Shown here: positions 33,314-40,641 of the stretch, in pieces
Layout of the letters: each line of letters starts with the position of its first letter
How positions within the stretch are numbered: position 1 is the stretch's first letter
Assembly (NCBI GenBank): GCA_003650815.1
Contig: QMSB01000006.1
Location: forward strand, 1 to 40,641
From: Thermoprotei archaeon
GTDB taxonomy: Archaea > Thermoproteota > Thermoprotei > Thermofilales > B15-G2
Length of the DNA stretch: 40,641 bases
Direction of reading: 5' to 3'
The notes under the pieces: generated by a model
Told to the model about the DNA's origin: nothing
The model's database searches: none
What the model saw: only the letters and a program-made list of their open reading frames with translations
Program-made: the position numbers and the translations under genes

Positions 33314-33646
33314 TTAGTTAAGGGATTTATTACTTTCCACAGCCTTTTTAAATAATTGAAATAATAAAAATGCATTTTCTTTCTCAGCTACTAGTATTAT
33401 TTGGCGATTATTCGAGTCTTTTGAGCCTATCACTACTATCTCTCCCTTTTCTACAATTACTCTAGTGACGGACTTCTTTTCAAGAATTTTACGTACCTCA
33501 GCAGTAATCCTAAAGCCATTAGTATTGCCGTACCAAAAGACAGGCTCTCCTCTCTCTACTATCAAAAAATACAATATGCTGTCTTCACTCACCCAACCTA
33601 ATATCTTGCTAAGCAAAACTACGGTGTCTCTTCTACTGTCTGACAT
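33314..33646 (-). CDS. Small protein downstream of a roadblock-like gene, possibly related
   Basis: A 110-residue alpha/beta protein (MSDSRRDTVVLLSKILGWVS start). Its strand-helix pattern and length (about 110 residues) resemble the roadblock/LC7 or profilin-like folds, but no diagnostic motif is visible. ATG 33646 lies 5 nt after the stop of the upstream gene. ATG 33676 would overlap it by 25 nt and adds ten residues. No Shine-Dalgarno motif is obvious before either. It is presumably cotranscribed with the roadblock gene. Confidence 0.55.
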   Translation of the reverse strand: MSDSRRDTVVLLSKILGWVSEDSILYFLIVERGEPVFWYGNTNGFRITAEVRKILEKKSVTRVIVEKGEIVVIGSKDSNNRQIILVAEKENAFLLFQLFKKAVESNKSLN

Positions 33647-33651
33647 AGTGT

Positions 33652-34047
33652 TTAATCTAGTATAGTACTTATACATCTATCTAAGGTCCTTTTCACAAGA
33701 CTTAGAATTAGCCCTATGTTCGGCTCTACAGACGATATTAGTAGCCCGTAGTCTCCTTTCGCTACTAACACAATGTTGTAGCGACTACCACTTATCACTA
33801 AGTATTTTACACTACTTAAGCCAAGTCCTTCAGCTAGCTTTAAGACTACGTTAATAATACTTGACGCTTGAGCAGAGGCCTCAAGAGGATCAATTATGTT
33901 CTCGGGATGAACTATTACCGGGAGTCCTTCTCTCGTAAAAAGTACTGCTATATGCCCATTAACTCTGCTTAAGAGCTCCTGGAGAGTTTCTCTTAGATCG
34001 TCGACAATAGATCTCTTATATTTTTTCAATTTAAAGATACTTTTCAT
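33652..34047 (-). CDS. Roadblock/LC7-like protein
   Basis: A 131-residue protein with the roadblock/LC7 layout: an N-terminal helix (about 12-30), strand GHIAVLFTREGLPV, a helix starting EASAQASSIINVVLKLAEGLG, strands SVKYLVISG and NIVLVAKGDYGLLISS, and a C-terminal helix. In bacteria and archaea such proteins are regulators (GAP-like MglB) or scaffolds for small Ras-like GTPases. No MglA-like GTPase is next to it; the nearest GTPases are the FtsZ-like genes 2 kb away. ATG 34047 is chosen because GAGGTGA lies 4 nt upstream; a TTG 21 nt earlier is open but precedes that motif. Confidence 0.68.
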   Translation of the reverse strand: MKSIFKLKKYKRSIVDDLRETLQELLSRVNGHIAVLFTREGLPVIVHPENIIDPLEASAQASSIINVVLKLAEGLGLSSVKYLVISGSRYNIVLVAKGDYGLLISSVEPNIGLILSLVKRTLDRCISTILD

Positions 34048-34051
34048 TAAC

Positions 34052-34058
34052 TCACCTC
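34052..34058 (-). promoter_or_regulatory. Strong Shine-Dalgarno site of the roadblock-like gene
   Basis: GAGGTGA on the minus strand ends 4 nt before ATG 34047, an unusually full match. It decides the start. A TATA box (TATAAATA, minus strand 34076-34083) lies about 20 nt further up. Confidence 0.6.
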
Positions 34059-34268
34059 TGTAATGCAAATGTTTTTATTTATAGTTCACATACTATTGTT
34101 CGATAAGAATATTAAGAATAACATTCGCCATTTATCTAAAGTCCTGTGTTCTTAATAATACTCAATGTTTCTAGTGTTTTCAAAGGATTTAAAAGCAAAT
34201 TAAATAGTTTCTTTTATTTGTTTAAATGATAGCTAAGGTTTAACTTAATTAGGTGAGTAGCGGTGAAA

Positions 34269-35683: not shown

Positions 35684-35880
35684 GTTGTTAATAATCACGC
35701 CTTCGTTTTCAAGGAGTACCTGTTATAAGCTTAACGACAGAGTATTCGAACCTCAGAGAAGTAAGTTTTGTAGTAATGTCAAGACTATTGCTCACCTAAT
35801 ATAATATATAAACAAATTTATATTAAACAGTATTCTAAAAGCCTAAAGACTCTATTTTAACAATTGAACCCATAGCGAAA

Positions 35881-35895
35881 CATATATATAATTTA
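35881..35895 (+). promoter_or_regulatory. TATA-rich promoter of the FtsZ-like array
   Basis: catatatataattta lies 25-39 nt upstream of ATG 35920, so transcription should begin at or just before the start codon. The 236-nt spacer from 35684 holds further AT tracts (35800-35830) but no gene that I can support. Confidence 0.45.
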
Positions 35896-35919
35896 CGCGT
35901 GAATAAATAGCGAGTATAT

Positions 35920-36906
35920 ATGATGAGACCCTTACGTGGTGATTTAGAAGAAGTAGTGACTAAAATCGTTGTCATCGGTATAGGTGACTGCGGATGCAAT
36001 ACCATAACAAATTTGTTCGAAAGAAACGTTGAGGCGAAGCTTATCGCTGTTAATACTGATGTAAATTCTCTCAATGTAACTAAAGCTCACCAGCTGATAC
36101 AGATAGGCGAGACCACGACAAGAGGCAGAGGCACTGGAGGCGACCTTTCTAAAGGAAGAAGAGCAGCTGAAGAAGATATAGATAAAGTTCTTGAAGCCAT
36201 AGGAAAGCCTGATTTTCTTCTAATAACATGCGGCTTTGGCGGGGGCACAGGTTCTGGAGCTACACCCTATATTCTAGCGCAGATGAGAGACGAGTATCCA
36301 GATCTACTCATGGGCGCAGTAGTATCTCTTCCGTTTAGATACGAGGGAATAGAGAGACTTAAGAACACGCAAATGGGTTTAAGAGATACATTAGATGTAG
36401 CTGACTTTGTTATAGTTAATCTAAATGACATTCTGTTAGAGCGCTATGGTACACTACCTCTTCAGGAGAGCTTTAAAATGATGGATGCAATACTAGCAAA
36501 CACTATTGAAAGCATAGTAGACATGCTTCAGCCTAAAGGAGCTCAGCTCAGAGTAGATTTCGCAGACTTAGTTACACTGCTCAGAAGAGCTGGAGTAAGC
36601 TTTGTTGGACACGGGCGCCACAGGTCGGTAAGAAAGGCTGTAGAGAAAGCCATTGAGTCTAAGCTATTAGACGCGGACTTAAGTTCAGCTAAAGGAGCAC
36701 TAGTCTATGTAAGCGCTCCGCCAGGAGTCAGTCTAAGACAAGCCGCAGAGGCTCCAAGAATAGTCAGCGACAAGTATGGCGTAGAGAGAGTTATCTGGGG
36801 CCTTAAAGTTAACCCGAAGCTGAGAGAGAGCCATGTAATGATTATTGCTAGTGGTGTTAAGTCGAGGATAGTATCAGATATTACTGGTATTGGGGAGGCT
36901 GGGTGA
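35920..36906 (+). CDS. FtsZ/tubulin-superfamily GTPase, paralogue 1 (catalytic loop intact)
   Basis: A 328-residue FtsZ-like protein, first in the array. Motifs in order: GIGDCGCNTITNL (nucleotide loop T1), AVNTD (T2, 43-47), TRGRGTGG (T3), the signature GFGGGTGSG (105-113, T4), SLPFRYEG (T5), VNLND (T6) and the T7 loop VDFAD with Asp213 and Asp216. Both catalytic Asp residues of FtsZ are kept, so it should support GTP hydrolysis in the next subunit of a filament. Canonical FtsZ has Asn two residues before the first Asp; here it is Arg211. The protein stops right after the core, with no linker or C-terminal peptide for FtsA/SepF. The next gene starts 6 nt downstream. Confidence 0.9.
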   Translation: MMRPLRGDLEEVVTKIVVIGIGDCGCNTITNLFERNVEAKLIAVNTDVNSLNVTKAHQLIQIGETTTRGRGTGGDLSKGRRAAEEDIDKVLEAIGKPDFLLITCGFGGGTGSGATPYILAQMRDEYPDLLMGAVVSLPFRYEGIERLKNTQMGLRDTLDVADFVIVNLNDILLERYGTLPLQESFKMMDAILANTIESIVDMLQPKGAQLRVDFADLVTLLRRAGVSFVGHGRHRSVRKAVEKAIESKLLDADLSSAKGALVYVSAPPGVSLRQAAEAPRIVSDKYGVERVIWGLKVNPKLRESHVMIIASGVKSRIVSDITGIGEAG

Positions 36907-36912
36907 TAGGTT

Positions 36913-37935
36913 ATGGGTTATCGAGTTAGATTACGTGAGCAGCTGAAATATTTAGCTCAGAAAGAGCGAGAAGCTGCTGTTAAAATCAATATTGTTGGAG
37001 TAGGAGGTTGCGGAAACAACGCTATTAACAACTTAGCTAGGCTACGACTTCCAGCCAAACTAATAGCTATGAACACGGATTCAGCTGTACTGAGGAGAAC
37101 GAGATGCGATGTTAGGGTTCTCCTTGGAGGACTCTCAGCTGAGGCGAGGGGGGCTCGAGGAGTACCAGAGCTCGGAGCACAGGCGATGGAGGAAAGCATA
37201 GAGGAAGCTATAGGAGCTATTGATGAAAACGTAGACGTAGTGATAGGGATTGCTGGACTGGGAGGAGGAACTGGTACGGGGGGTCTACCTGTATTATTCA
37301 GAGAGCTAAGGACTAAGAGACCTAATGCTCTCAGGATAGCAGTAGTAACTCTACCATTCAAAGAGGAGGGAGAGGAGAGAATAAAGAATGCTCAAATAGG
37401 TCTCAGGGAACTAATGGACGTCTCCGACGCCATTATAGTCAATGCAAACGACCTTCTCGCAGAGAGGCTGAGAGGAGTAAGCATGGCTTATGCTTTCAAG
37501 GAAATGGACAAGCGTATCGCACGTATAGTAGAAGCTCTAGTTAGAATGCAGTCTCCTGTAATAGGACCAGGAGTAATCAACGTAGACTTCTCCAATGTCC
37601 AGAGACTGATGCAGAATTCCGGTTTCTGCTTCGTGGGCGTCGGAGAAGGCCCGAGAATATATGACGCGTATATTAAAGCCATAGCAGACGACTATGCTAG
37701 ATCTAGACTAGAGCAGGCGAGAGGAGCAATACTCATGTTTGAAGGCAGAGAGACACTACTAGACATGACTCAGATAAGAACTACGACTAGACAGTTTTCA
37801 GAAAAATACGCTATACCAACAGTTTTCCTAGGTCTAAGACCTACATGGGATATAACCGACGTAAGAGTATCTGTTTTCGTAACATCTATTAAATGTGAGT
37901 ATGTAGAAGAATTTATGTCTGGTTTTATGGGGTGA
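36913..37935 (+). CDS. FtsZ/tubulin-superfamily protein, paralogue 2 (T7 loop DFSN)
   Basis: A 340-residue FtsZ-like protein with an N-terminal helix of about 22 charged residues. Nucleotide motifs are classical: GVGGCGNNAINNL, AMNTD, AGLGGGTGTGG (114-124), VVTLPFKEEG and VNANDLL. T7 reads NVDFSN, keeping Asn223 and Asp225 but with Asn228 for the second catalytic Asp. It should bind GTP, but as the upper partner of an interface it may hydrolyse poorly. No C-terminal tail is present; it ends VEEFMSGFMG. GGGTGA overlapping the previous stop acts as ribosome site. Confidence 0.9.
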   Translation: MGYRVRLREQLKYLAQKEREAAVKINIVGVGGCGNNAINNLARLRLPAKLIAMNTDSAVLRRTRCDVRVLLGGLSAEARGARGVPELGAQAMEESIEEAIGAIDENVDVVIGIAGLGGGTGTGGLPVLFRELRTKRPNALRIAVVTLPFKEEGEERIKNAQIGLRELMDVSDAIIVNANDLLAERLRGVSMAYAFKEMDKRIARIVEALVRMQSPVIGPGVINVDFSNVQRLMQNSGFCFVGVGEGPRIYDAYIKAIADDYARSRLEQARGAILMFEGRETLLDMTQIRTTTRQFSEKYAIPTVFLGLRPTWDITDVRVSVFVTSIKCEYVEEFMSGFMG

Positions 37936-37941
37936 TAAAGT

Positions 37942-38232
37942 ATGATATTTCGTAGAAAGAAAAAGGAAGAGAAAGTAGAGAAAGCTCCATCGACTCCGCC
38001 AGCTCCTAGTCCACTCGATTTAGCTTTAAAATTCTTAGAGGAGGAAAGCGGTGAAGTAGATATAGCATGGTACTGTGAGCTAGAGAAGATGCCTTTTGAG
38101 CCGCCGATAGTGAAGTTTATCGAGTGGGTAGAAGCTAAGGGGCATGGGGGACTATACTCGAGAGAACAGCTGTTAGACGCGCTTACAAGAGCGTTTAGAA
38201 TGAAGCTAGATGAGAGGCGGGGCAGAAGGTGA
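37942..38232 (+). CDS. 96-residue protein encoded inside the FtsZ-like array, family unknown
   Basis: Starts with a basic, Lys-rich segment (FRRKKKEEKVEK) and a Pro/Ala linker (residues 17-25, APSTPPAPSP region), followed by a folded helical part (27-96, with FLEEESGEVDIAWYCELEKM and LYSREQLLDALTRAF). The basic N-terminus could touch membrane lipid or an acidic filament surface. I recognise no family. It lies 6 nt after paralogue 2 and 4 nt before paralogue 3, with GGGGTGA upstream, so it is made with them and is a candidate adaptor. This role is inferred from position only. Confidence 0.7.
   Translation: MIFRRKKKEEKVEKAPSTPPAPSPLDLALKFLEEESGEVDIAWYCELEKMPFEPPIVKFIEWVEAKGHGGLYSREQLLDALTRAFRMKLDERRGRR
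38227..38232 (+). promoter_or_regulatory. Shine-Dalgarno site of FtsZ-like paralogue 3
   Basis: AGGTGA ends 4 nt before ATG 38237 and includes the stop of the upstream gene. It decides this start against ATG 38210, which would overlap that gene. Confidence 0.6.
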
Positions 38233-38236
38233 GAGA

Positions 38237-39244
38237 ATGTCTCGTAAAATTCTCGAGGCACAGAGACTTGCAGAGGTAGTCTCTAAGAGAGCAGTACTTA
38301 AAATAGCGGTCTGCGGTATTGGGGGTTGTGGTTGTAATACTATAACTAATCTTGAAAGAGCCGGTATAGATGTTCCTACAGTCGCGGTTAACACTGATGC
38401 AGCTGTCCTCTATAAGACGAAAGCTAAGTATAGAATACTTATTGGTGAAACAGTAACTAGAGGAAGAGGAAGTGCTGGAAGCCCCGCTCTCGGCAGAGAA
38501 ATAATGAGCAAAGAAGCTGATAAAGTAATAGCACCTGTGAGAGACGCTGAGCTATTTATTCTAACAGCCGGACTTGGAGGTGGGACTGGTACAGGGGGCA
38601 TTATAGCGCTAACAGAATATATCAAAGAGAACATGCCAGATAAACTAGTGTGGACTGTAGTGACAACACCCTTTTCCTCAGAAGGTGTTGAAAGAGTAAG
38701 AAATGCACAGGTAGCACTAGCGGAGCTCCTCGACTTAGCTGATGTCGTTTTAGTGAACTTCAACGACATACTGAAACAGAAAATGGGTTCAAGAAGTTTA
38801 CACCAAGCTTTCAGGGACATGGATAAGCACTTAGTAACTGTAATTACTGCTCTCACAAGTCTCCAATATACAGAGCCTACACCTGGACTAGTAAACATAG
38901 ACTTCTCAAACGTCGAAAGACTCACTAGAAGAAGCGGCCTAGGTTTTGTAGGAGTAGGTGAGGGATCAAGACTTCTCACAGCATTCGAAAATGCTCTCGA
39001 ACAGAACTTCTGTGAAGCAGATCTTACTGAAGCTAAAGGCGCAGTAATATACATGGAGGGTACTCAAGCAATGCTCAAGACAAGCGAAGTCGAGGAAATG
39101 ACAAGCATACTAGACTCCAAGTACGGCATATCAACAATCTTCTGGGGAGTACGCTACAACTGGAGGCTCTATAATCCTAGAGTAATGCTACTTGCAGCAG
39201 GAGTAAGGTCTCCTCTAGTAGACAAGTACCTTGAGGTGAAGTAG
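38237..39244 (+). CDS. FtsZ/tubulin-superfamily protein, paralogue 3 (T7 loop DFSN)
   Basis: A 335-residue FtsZ-like protein. Motifs: GIGGCGCNTITNL, AVNTD (50-54), TRGRGSAGS, AGLGGGTGTGG (111-121), VVTTPFSSEG, VNFND and T7 NIDFSN (Asn220, Asp222, Asn225). As in paralogue 2, the second catalytic Asp is Asn. It shares TRGRG with paralogue 1 and DFSN with paralogue 2, so the array arose by repeated duplication and divergence. It ends VDKYLEVK just after the core, with no adaptor-binding tail. The PRC-barrel gene follows after 4 nt. Confidence 0.9.
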   Translation: MSRKILEAQRLAEVVSKRAVLKIAVCGIGGCGCNTITNLERAGIDVPTVAVNTDAAVLYKTKAKYRILIGETVTRGRGSAGSPALGREIMSKEADKVIAPVRDAELFILTAGLGGGTGTGGIIALTEYIKENMPDKLVWTVVTTPFSSEGVERVRNAQVALAELLDLADVVLVNFNDILKQKMGSRSLHQAFRDMDKHLVTVITALTSLQYTEPTPGLVNIDFSNVERLTRRSGLGFVGVGEGSRLLTAFENALEQNFCEADLTEAKGAVIYMEGTQAMLKTSEVEEMTSILDSKYGISTIFWGVRYNWRLYNPRVMLLAAGVRSPLVDKYLEVK

Positions 39245-39248
39245 GATA

Positions 39249-39488
39249 ATGTCCAGAAAGATCTCGGACAAAGAAATTATAGGTAAGCAGGTAATAGATA
39301 CAAGCGGTAAAGTAGTCGGAGTAGTTGAGAGTATAGTTATAACAGAGAAAGCAGCCCAGGGAGTAGAATTAGTGATAAAAAAGATAGTTAAAATAGGTCC
39401 AAGGACTAAAGAAACAAAAATTAATATACCTTTTTCATATGTATTACAGGTAGGTGACGTAATTCTACTAAACAGATCAGTAGATTGA
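39249..39488 (+). CDS. PRC-barrel protein within the FtsZ-like array
   Basis: A 79-residue single PRC-barrel domain: IIGKQVIDTSGKVVGVVESI is the typical first hairpin, and NIPFSYVLQVGDVILLN closes the barrel. Haloarchaeal CdpB1/CdpB2 are small PRC-barrel proteins that join the FtsZ-SepF division complex, and CdvA of ESCRT-dividing archaea also begins with a PRC-like barrel. An adaptor role for these FtsZ-like filaments is therefore a reasonable inference. RNA-processing PRC-barrel proteins are the alternative. The ATG is preceded by GAGGTGA that lies in the end of paralogue 3. Confidence 0.85.
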   Translation: MSRKISDKEIIGKQVIDTSGKVVGVVESIVITEKAAQGVELVIKKIVKIGPRTKETKINIPFSYVLQVGDVILLNRSVD

Positions 39489-39489
39489 T

Positions 39490-39495
39490 AGGTGA
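39490..39495 (+). promoter_or_regulatory. Shine-Dalgarno site of FtsZ-like paralogue 4
   Basis: AGGTGA ends 5 nt before ATG 39501. The in-frame GTG at 39492 is part of this motif and so is unlikely to be the start. Confidence 0.55.
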
Positions 39496-39500
39496 AGAAA

Positions 39501-40457
39501 ATGGCTGCTGAACTGAAAATATATGTTGTAGGTATAGGGGGCAGGGGTCTTAATGCTCTTACTGCTATTAAGAGGAGAGGAATCCCTGTTAAAACTATTG
39601 GAATAGACACTGATTCTTCTGCTCTCTCTGTAGCTAAGTGTGATGAAAAGCTTCTTATAGGAGAGGACTTGACTAAAGGAAGATCTACTGCAGGTGTAAT
39701 GGAGATCGGAAGAAAAGCCATGGAAGCGCTTGCATATAAGATCGTAGAGAAAGTGGCAGACGGCGAAGTAGTTGTTTTAATATCAGGTTTAGGTGGAGGT
39801 GCTGGAAGTGGAGGACACACTGTATTAGTAGAGAGTATCAAAGAGAGATTTCCAGAAAAACTAGTCATATCGTTCGTGACAATACCATTCAAAACAGAAA
39901 GCGGAAATAGGATAAATAACGCTAAAATGGCTCTCTCCACAATAATAGACATATCCGATGTAACAGTAGTACACTTTAATGACTTACTTAAAGAAAAATA
40001 TCCCTCTCTTCCTCTCGTTAGAGCCTACAGGATTCTTGACAATAAAATAGAAGAGAGCTTACGGGCAATACTCGGACTTCAGAACATTAAACCTATACCC
40101 GGTGTGGTGAATGTAGACTTTAATTCATTTAAAGCAATAGCGATGAGGTCAGGGCTAGGCTTAATAAATGTCAAGGAAGCAGCCTCTGTGCTTTCAGCAT
40201 TTAAGGAAGCCTTAAAAGAAGAGTTCTGTGATATTGATGTAACAGGGTGCAAAGGAGCAGTAGTCTACATAGAGGGTAGCGAGACAGCCTTACAGACATC
40301 AGACATATATGACATATCCGGTACGCTGACTTCAACCTATGGAATACAAGTAGTATACTTTGGATTTAAGCCCAGCTGGGAGCTTACGCAGCCGAAGGTA
40401 GCTTTCATCGCAACAGGAGTTAAGTCCGAGTCTGTGAGAAAATTCCTAGAGGAGTGA
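39501..40457 (+). CDS. FtsZ/tubulin-superfamily protein, paralogue 4 (most divergent motifs)
   Basis: A 318-residue FtsZ-like protein. T1 is GIGGRGLNAL, T2 is IDTD in place of NTD, the signature is SGLGGGAGSGG (96-105, with Ala for the first Thr), T5 is VTIPFKTES (the final Gly is changed) and T7 is NVDFNS (Asn204, Asp206, Ser209). The second catalytic Asp is Ser. GTP binding is likely weakened but not excluded, since the glycine loop is intact. The C-terminus is VRKFLEE, with no tail. It follows the PRC-barrel gene by 12 nt and precedes paralogue 5 by 1 nt. Confidence 0.88.
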   Translation: MAAELKIYVVGIGGRGLNALTAIKRRGIPVKTIGIDTDSSALSVAKCDEKLLIGEDLTKGRSTAGVMEIGRKAMEALAYKIVEKVADGEVVVLISGLGGGAGSGGHTVLVESIKERFPEKLVISFVTIPFKTESGNRINNAKMALSTIIDISDVTVVHFNDLLKEKYPSLPLVRAYRILDNKIEESLRAILGLQNIKPIPGVVNVDFNSFKAIAMRSGLGLINVKEAASVLSAFKEALKEEFCDIDVTGCKGAVVYIEGSETALQTSDIYDISGTLTSTYGIQVVYFGFKPSWELTQPKVAFIATGVKSESVRKFLEE

Positions 40458-40458
40458 G

Positions 40459-40641
40459 ATGATGGCAGAGATAGCTAGACCGAGCATTGTTGTTATTGGT
40501 GTTGGTGGTTGCGGTGTTAATACTTTGAATAGGTTGTATGAGGTTGGTGCTACTGAGGATGTTTTAGCTGTTGCTGTTCATACTGAAGCAGTACACTTAC
40601 AGTCAGTTAAAATACCAAATAAAATACTAATAGGACAAACA
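40459..40641 (+). CDS. FtsZ/tubulin-superfamily protein, paralogue 5 (cut by the window end)
   Basis: ATG 40459 opens 61 codons to the edge. T1 GVGGCGVNTLNRL is clear, and T2 reads AVHTEAVHL where FtsZ has NTD, so Asn and Asp are replaced by His and Glu. The start is one nt after the previous stop, with GGAG just upstream; a second ATG follows directly. The signature and T7 loops lie outside the window. The array therefore has at least five members and continues to the right. Confidence 0.85.
   Translation, partial: MMAEIARPSIVVIGVGGCGVNTLNRLYEVGATEDVLAVAVHTEAVHLQSVKIPNKILIGQT

Follow-up and report, generated by a model that had tools for sequence, protein, structure and literature searches.

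An archaeal operon of FtsZ-family paralogues with type-specific T7 loops, proposed to encode a mixed GTP-binding polymer

One polymer of divided labor in the tubulin/FtsZ superfamily is that of eukaryotic alpha/beta-tubulin, with which BtubA/B is grouped as a comparable system. Its paralogues keep or lose an acid at the second position of the T7 loop, which reads NVDLTE in alpha-tubulin (Glu) and NADLRK in beta-tubulin (Lys), as checked in PDB chains. The plant chloroplast proteins FtsZ1 and FtsZ2 most likely co-assemble as a heteropolymer in which one of the two tunes turnover (PMC8142252). Archaea encode FtsZ1 and FtsZ2, with an FtsZ fold and GTP-binding motifs, as well as the non-division superfamily members CetZ, artubulin, FtsZl1 and FtsZl2. 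In Haloferax, FtsZ is recruited by a complex of PRC-barrel proteins and SepF (PMC10936438). A source from 2010 mentions FtsZ paralogues without known motifs (PMC2875224), and 'non-canonical FtsZ-like sequences' have been noted in Korarchaeia, with no role assigned to them (PMC9723716). Here we describe an operon of five FtsZ-family genes at the end of the window, the 40,641-nucleotide stretch of DNA analyzed. The window is contig C6 in full, part of an archaeal metagenome-assembled genome (MAG; G000) that is 85% complete.

The operon runs A-B-s-C1-PRC-C2-D on the plus strand and spans about 4.7 kb. With a probability of roughly 0.55, we propose that this conserved operon encodes a mixed GTP-binding FtsZ-family polymer, separate from division FtsZ, in which catalysis would be confined to certain interfaces (those of A and perhaps D). 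The open reading frames (ORFs) and Pfam matches confirm the original prediction of five tubulin/FtsZ-superfamily genes lying head to tail around two small genes. Four of the five ORFs are complete, and the fifth (D) is cut by the contig end after its first 61 codons. The features are as follows.

35863..35919, plus strand: putative operon promoter, a TATA-like tatatataat close 5' of A, from sequence reading; weak, with a consensus scan at chance level
35920..36906, plus strand: A, FtsZ-family, 328 aa (PF00091 6.2e-36, FtsZ_C 5.6e-12; TIGR00065 236 bits; clade A 100/99)
36550..36567, plus strand: T7 loop of A, RVDFAD, both Asp present, Arg at the Asn207 position
36913..37935, plus strand: B, FtsZ-family, 340 aa, with a helical N-terminal extension (PF00091 1.9e-33; model pLDDT 87)
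37579..37596, plus strand: T7 loop of B, NVDFSN, Asn replacing the second Asp
37942..38232, plus strand: s, 96 aa, a basic flexible N-terminus followed by a four-helix domain (residues 24-94)
38210..39244, plus strand: C1, FtsZ-family, starting at 38210 or, likelier, 38237 (PF00091 9.7e-33; clade C1)
38894..38911, plus strand: T7 loop of C1, NIDFSN, Asn replacing the second Asp
39249..39488, plus strand: PRC-barrel protein, 79 aa (PF05239 1.8e-9), at the same position in Korarchaeia
39492..40457, plus strand: C2, FtsZ-family, 321 aa, GTG start (PF00091 2.9e-30; clade C2 100/97)
40110..40127, plus strand: T7 loop of C2, NVDFNS, Ser replacing the second Asp
40459..40641, plus strand: D, FtsZ-family, first 61 codons, orthologous to D of other genomes
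G000 contig C29, 17488-16645, minus strand: continuation of D (or of its second copy D', which joins the same end), with a 61-bp end overlap with C6
G000 contig C29, 16978-16995, minus strand: T7 loop of D, SISYAD, first Asp lost, second present

The intergenic gaps are 1-6 nt. From its first ATG, C1 overlaps s by 23 nt; from the alternative ATG at 38237 it begins 4 nt past s. The predicted gaps of 1-12 nt were thus about right, and the T7 letters given for the first four copies (DFAD, DFSN, DFSN and DFNS) are those found. Array proteins of the window genome are 309-345 aa long, with Pfam matches to PF00091 and FtsZ_C only.

Ten genomes were found to carry the ordered module: six Korarchaeia, two MAGs with Bathyarchaeota in their titles, and representatives of two crenarchaeal lineages; the six korarchaeal carriers are related to one another, leaving about five independent lineages. 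The order A-B-s-C-D is common to all ten, with a contig end truncating the array in two. Among relatives searched with Pfam, G030 (Thermoprotei B12_G16), which belongs to another family of the window's class, has a four-gene array, and a phylum survey recovered one from G140 (Bathyarchaeota ex4484_205). Both show the order A-B-s-C-D and reciprocal best hits for A, B and D. Since gene order and reciprocal best hits recur in other genomes, the module is not a chance arrangement, and it extends beyond the window organism. Scanning the named collection from which these genome names come with D added L069 (Bathyarchaeota B24_G1), L071 (Thermoproteota B8_G17) and L072. The order in L071 is identical to that in the window, A-B-s-C1-PRC-C2-D. 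Its class contains the korarchaeon Ca. Methanodesulfokora. Within that class the array is present in 6 of 26 genomes, and the remaining 20 carry only division-type FtsZ, so that across these 26 genomes the array types are always co-inherited, all or none. One korarchaeal carrier, G417, is a single contig of 1,590,757 bp carrying the full module. The distribution is patchy: in the window's own class, G030 alone gave an array match among the 80 genomes scanned, a set that does not include G000. Among the matches listed in the phylum survey there was no lone array-type gene. In the Korarchaeia examined, the gene after D encodes a protein of some 300 aa that has no Pfam match (L215:10265-11173, with equivalents in L216 and L217).

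The T7 loops of 45 array proteins were compared with those of 133 other FtsZ-family sequences, using E. coli residue numbers. Type A has both D209 and D212 in 10/10 proteins, with Arg or His at 207. Type B has Asn at 212 in 9/10, the exception being G140 B (SIDFSD). All 18 C copies lack the second Asp: C1 has D then N (8/8), C2 has V, I or S in place of the second Asp (7/7), and the single C copies have D then N, H or T (3/3). Type D has Ser at 209 and Asp at 212 in 7/7. Both Asp are present in 125 of the 133 other sequences. The T7 hydrolysis motif NxDxx[D/E] (PMC12583498) occurs in 0/45 array proteins versus 121/133 others. The type patterns are [RH]xDxxD for A, NxDxSN for B, NxDxx[NVIS] and variants for C, and [SG]xSxxD for D. 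GTP-binding loop motifs are present in most array copies. Between the korarchaeal genomes G417 and G421, dN/dS is approximately 0.04 for A, 0.05 for B, 0.05 for C1, 0.06 for C2 and 0.02 for D. T7 letters fixed per type over deep divergence, together with these low ratios, indicate that the copies are constrained and not decaying.

The original prediction read the same loops as a graded loss of the catalytic loop, with the first Asp always kept and the second lost in all but the first copy. The change is instead a fixed division by type. D has lost the first Asp, and both D and G140 B retain the second. A therefore need not be the only donor of hydrolyzing interfaces, contrary to what had been proposed for paralogue 1.

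In a mixture-model IQ-TREE phylogeny, the array proteins group in a single clade outside FtsZ1, FtsZ2 and other family members, as the original prediction required, and are not scattered among unrelated single-copy FtsZ groups. Support for this clade is 95/86 when a long CetZ-like row is included and 100/100 without it. The clade splits into A+D (98/94) and B+C (100/99), and A, B and D are each supported at 100. C1 and C2 are each tight groups; whether all C copies unite in a single clade varies with the choice of long rows. After removal of the T7 columns, the array clade stays at 100/100 and B+C at 100/99, and A+D drops to 93/88, so the T7 letters do not drive the array clade or B+C, while A+D is slightly weaker without them. 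The topology suggests that the type duplications are older than the split of the lineages, or that the module was transferred as a unit.

The four complete window genes match the Pfam Tubulin family at 6e-36, 2e-33, 1e-32 and 3e-30. Their TIGR00065 scores of 236, 183, 187 and 153 bits all lie under the equivalog cut-off of 295.2. The best PDB matches of the predicted B model are to FtsZ from M. jannaschii, with TM scores of 0.82-0.84, and sequence matches of B in the PDB begin with FtsZ at about 1e-45, followed by CetZ-type structures at about 1e-12, with no eukaryotic tubulin at 1e-3. Beyond T7, array proteins extend for 109-115 residues (60 for C of G140, which is truncated), compared to mostly 120-150 or more in others, and none has the FtsZ C-terminal tail (the linker and tail for SepF/FtsA). 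They differ from archaeal FtsZ1 and FtsZ2, despite the common fold and GTP-binding motifs, in lying outside their clade and under the TIGR00065 cut-off and in lacking both NxDxx[D/E] and the tail. CetZ-type structures match B only distantly, and one Thermococcus CetZ-like protein falls outside the array clade, in a tree that holds no haloarchaeal CetZ. FtsZl1 is a long Tubulin_2 (PF13809) protein, whereas array proteins have neither PF13809 nor a long C-terminal extension.

The claim that the array comes with accessory genes of its own holds up: s orthologues occur at the same place in 10/10 genomes, and the PRC-barrel gene is at the same position elsewhere. In the AlphaFold model of s, a four-helix domain (pLDDT about 95) stands behind a disordered start with a conserved pattern, hydrophobic residues then RKK. 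No Pfam match was found for s, and Foldseek with this model returned no PDB relative. As a guess, the N-terminal start may bind membrane. The PRC-barrel gene always accompanies C2 (in the window, L071 and Korarchaeia; L072 is cut after PRC). Since the subunits lack the SepF-binding FtsZ tail, s and, where present, the PRC-barrel protein are likely links to the membrane or to partners. The haloarchaeal complex likewise ties a PRC-barrel protein to an FtsZ-family polymer; here, however, a 79-aa PRC-barrel protein is encoded inside the FtsZ operon, and no SepF was found in several hosts. A clear Roadblock gene lies directly upstream of A in G140. Two small genes lie 2 kb upstream of the array in the window (33314-34068, minus strand), one of them weakly Roadblock-superfamily-like (MAPKK1_Int 2e-4, below the cut-off).

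One or two division-type FtsZ genes are found in addition to the array in the Korarchaeia carriers and G140, and SepF matches in G140, G403 and G404 (G417, G418, G421 and G431 were outside the SepF test). Neither division-type FtsZ nor SepF gave a match in G030 (98% complete), G000 (85% complete) or the partial genome G402. CdvA was identified in G030 and G402, in the latter with two adjoining Snf7-like genes, and gave no match in G000 at its 85% completeness. The Snf7 probe for the endosomal sorting complex required for transport (ESCRT) was insensitive, missing expected positives and scoring Sulfolobus under the cut-off, so we make no claim of Cdv absence from it. Actin matches were found in 5/6 carriers tested. 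The module thus occurs with and without division FtsZ and SepF and is not tied to one division system; the array is probably a separate cytoskeleton, with a division role possible in G000, where neither FtsZ nor CdvA gave a match.

How such a polymer might work can be sketched from these patterns. An ancestral gene would have given rise to an A/D lineage and a B/C lineage and then to four types, with C2 as a further copy that arrived with the PRC-barrel gene. Every type would bind GTP, and the subunits would stack head to tail; in this family, a subunit's T7 loop completes the GTPase site of the adjacent one. A, with a full T7 loop and both Asp, would drive hydrolysis. B and C, whose T7 loops lack the second Asp much like beta-tubulin with its Lys254, would leave GTP in place at their joints, and joints of D, which has the second Asp without the first Asp or the Asn, might be slow. 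The polymer would then contain both stable and labile joints, their ratio depending on the subunit mix, s and the PRC-barrel protein (where present) would link it to the membrane or partners, and it would probably serve to shape the cell or to scaffold membrane. The D212N mutant of E. coli FtsZ polymerizes despite its GTPase defect (PMC3573117), and its polymers are described as stable (PMC12754632). More tentatively, at somewhat less than even odds, the polymer may be obligately multi-type: duplication would have divided catalysis between A/D and B/C, and archaeal FtsZ would have arrived independently at the alpha/beta-tubulin principle, with adaptors of its own and a non-division role. Several points weigh against a mixed polymer with confined catalysis. 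The split has exceptions in G140, whose B has both Asp and whose C is truncated, at 264 aa; in some types (for example L072_A and C2) residues of the GTP loop or of contacts are altered, and GTP binding may be unequal; and genes conserved together in an operon may also specify proteins that act sequentially or in separate polymers.

In another reading, one operon supplies four separate FtsZ-family polymers with roles of their own, like Haloferax FtsZ1, FtsZ2 and the CetZs. Archaea that have several FtsZ-family proteins do put them to separate use, as with OdinFtsZ1 and FtsZ2, which differ in filament and tether (PMC12583498), but the set here is all-or-none and within one operon, and from family knowledge homopolymers of C2 (Val/Ile at the second Asp) or D (Ser at the first) should lack turnover, which makes this reading improbable. 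A little less doubtful is that A (and D) form active homopolymers while B and C serve as GTP-bound pseudo-GTPase caps or stabilizers and not as regular lattice partners. B and C keep GTP-binding motifs and have nearly always lost the catalytic Asp, as in a regulatory pseudo-enzyme, and each array holds two to three genes of this kind. However, the types are conserved as a complete set, with their order fixed and under equal constraint, and caps would usually be degenerate on one face, whereas the T7 loop of B and C1 is almost strictly N-x-D-x-S-N. Simple tandem duplication with decaying copies can be put aside almost entirely: the short and divergent G140 C would fit it, but dN/dS of 0.02-0.06 rules out pseudogenes, frames are open in ten genomes and the T7 letters are type-fixed over deep divergence.

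Alternatively, the array could be the cell-division machine of these archaea, in place of FtsZ and SepF. The lack of division-type FtsZ and SepF matches in G000 and G030, and of a CdvA match in G000, would be expected in that case, and PRC-barrel proteins are divisome parts in Haloferax (PMC10936438). We regard it as unlikely, as Korarchaeia and G140 also carry division-type FtsZ, three such genomes have SepF, CdvA is present in G030 and G402 (with the Snf7-like pair in G402), the array is absent from most relatives in the class, and G000 is only 85% complete. The mixed polymer separate from division FtsZ remains our preferred reading.

The window genome holds eight array-type genes in total and one unrelated Tubulin_2 protein. 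Contig C50 (10108-12224) has a further, incomplete array, C1'-C2'-D', which lacks A, B, s and PRC; its C1' and C2' share 72% and 54% identity with the window copies. The final 123 bp of C50 also occur in the window, and both C6 and C50 run into the end of C29. G000 thus holds two arrays, or one array and a partial copy, and C29 may continue either D or D'. Along the D gene (window 40459-40641 and the start of C29, minus strand from 17488), blocks of T/G-ending synonymous codons alternate with A/C-ending blocks. This pattern has z = 11 against within-gene codon shuffles, the next highest among 65 ORFs being 3.3; nothing comparable occurs in most D orthologues, and the pattern lies at the assembly break, at which D and D' are identical over 123 bases. 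MAG contamination was rejected, as the adjacent pyruvate kinase best matches the same class and order and C6, C50 and C29 have near-identical tetranucleotide make-up. An assembly artefact was also rejected, because the full module is intact in G417, a single-contig genome, and on two further contigs. A viral origin was likewise rejected, no B relative being found in viral contigs. The Tubulin_2 (PF13809) protein, 977 aa and FtsZl1-like, is encoded at C32:198-3128, and G009 and G012, of the same order as G000, have weaker long-frame matches to it. A coiled-coil and winged-helix protein 3' of D (L018:14594-15349, minus strand) has a weak ZapB-like match (0.001).

The alpha/beta-tubulin analogy drawn in the original prediction is exact at the sequence level (NVDLTE versus NADLRK). 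Array proteins are nonetheless FtsZ-like and comprise four to five types, and the tree suggests that their split arose separately. Chloroplast FtsZ1 and FtsZ2, in contrast, are two types only and have a plastid-division role. The korarchaeal sequences of PMC9723716 very probably include these array genes, but the operon, the type split and the T7 pattern do not appear in its passages on korarchaeal FtsZ-like sequences. No description of the ordered module, type split or T7 code was found in the literature searched; the korarchaeal genes themselves may have been mentioned before.

How a self-assembling GTPase evolved into the two-part tubulin of microtubules is a long-standing question. The module is a natural, repeated case from the sister family, in which paralogues have divided the catalytic loop and stayed in one operon. 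If our proposal is true, some crenarchaea, long said to be without FtsZ, would gain an FtsZ-family cytoskeleton. Purified proteins of heat-loving archaea would permit a direct test of the idea.

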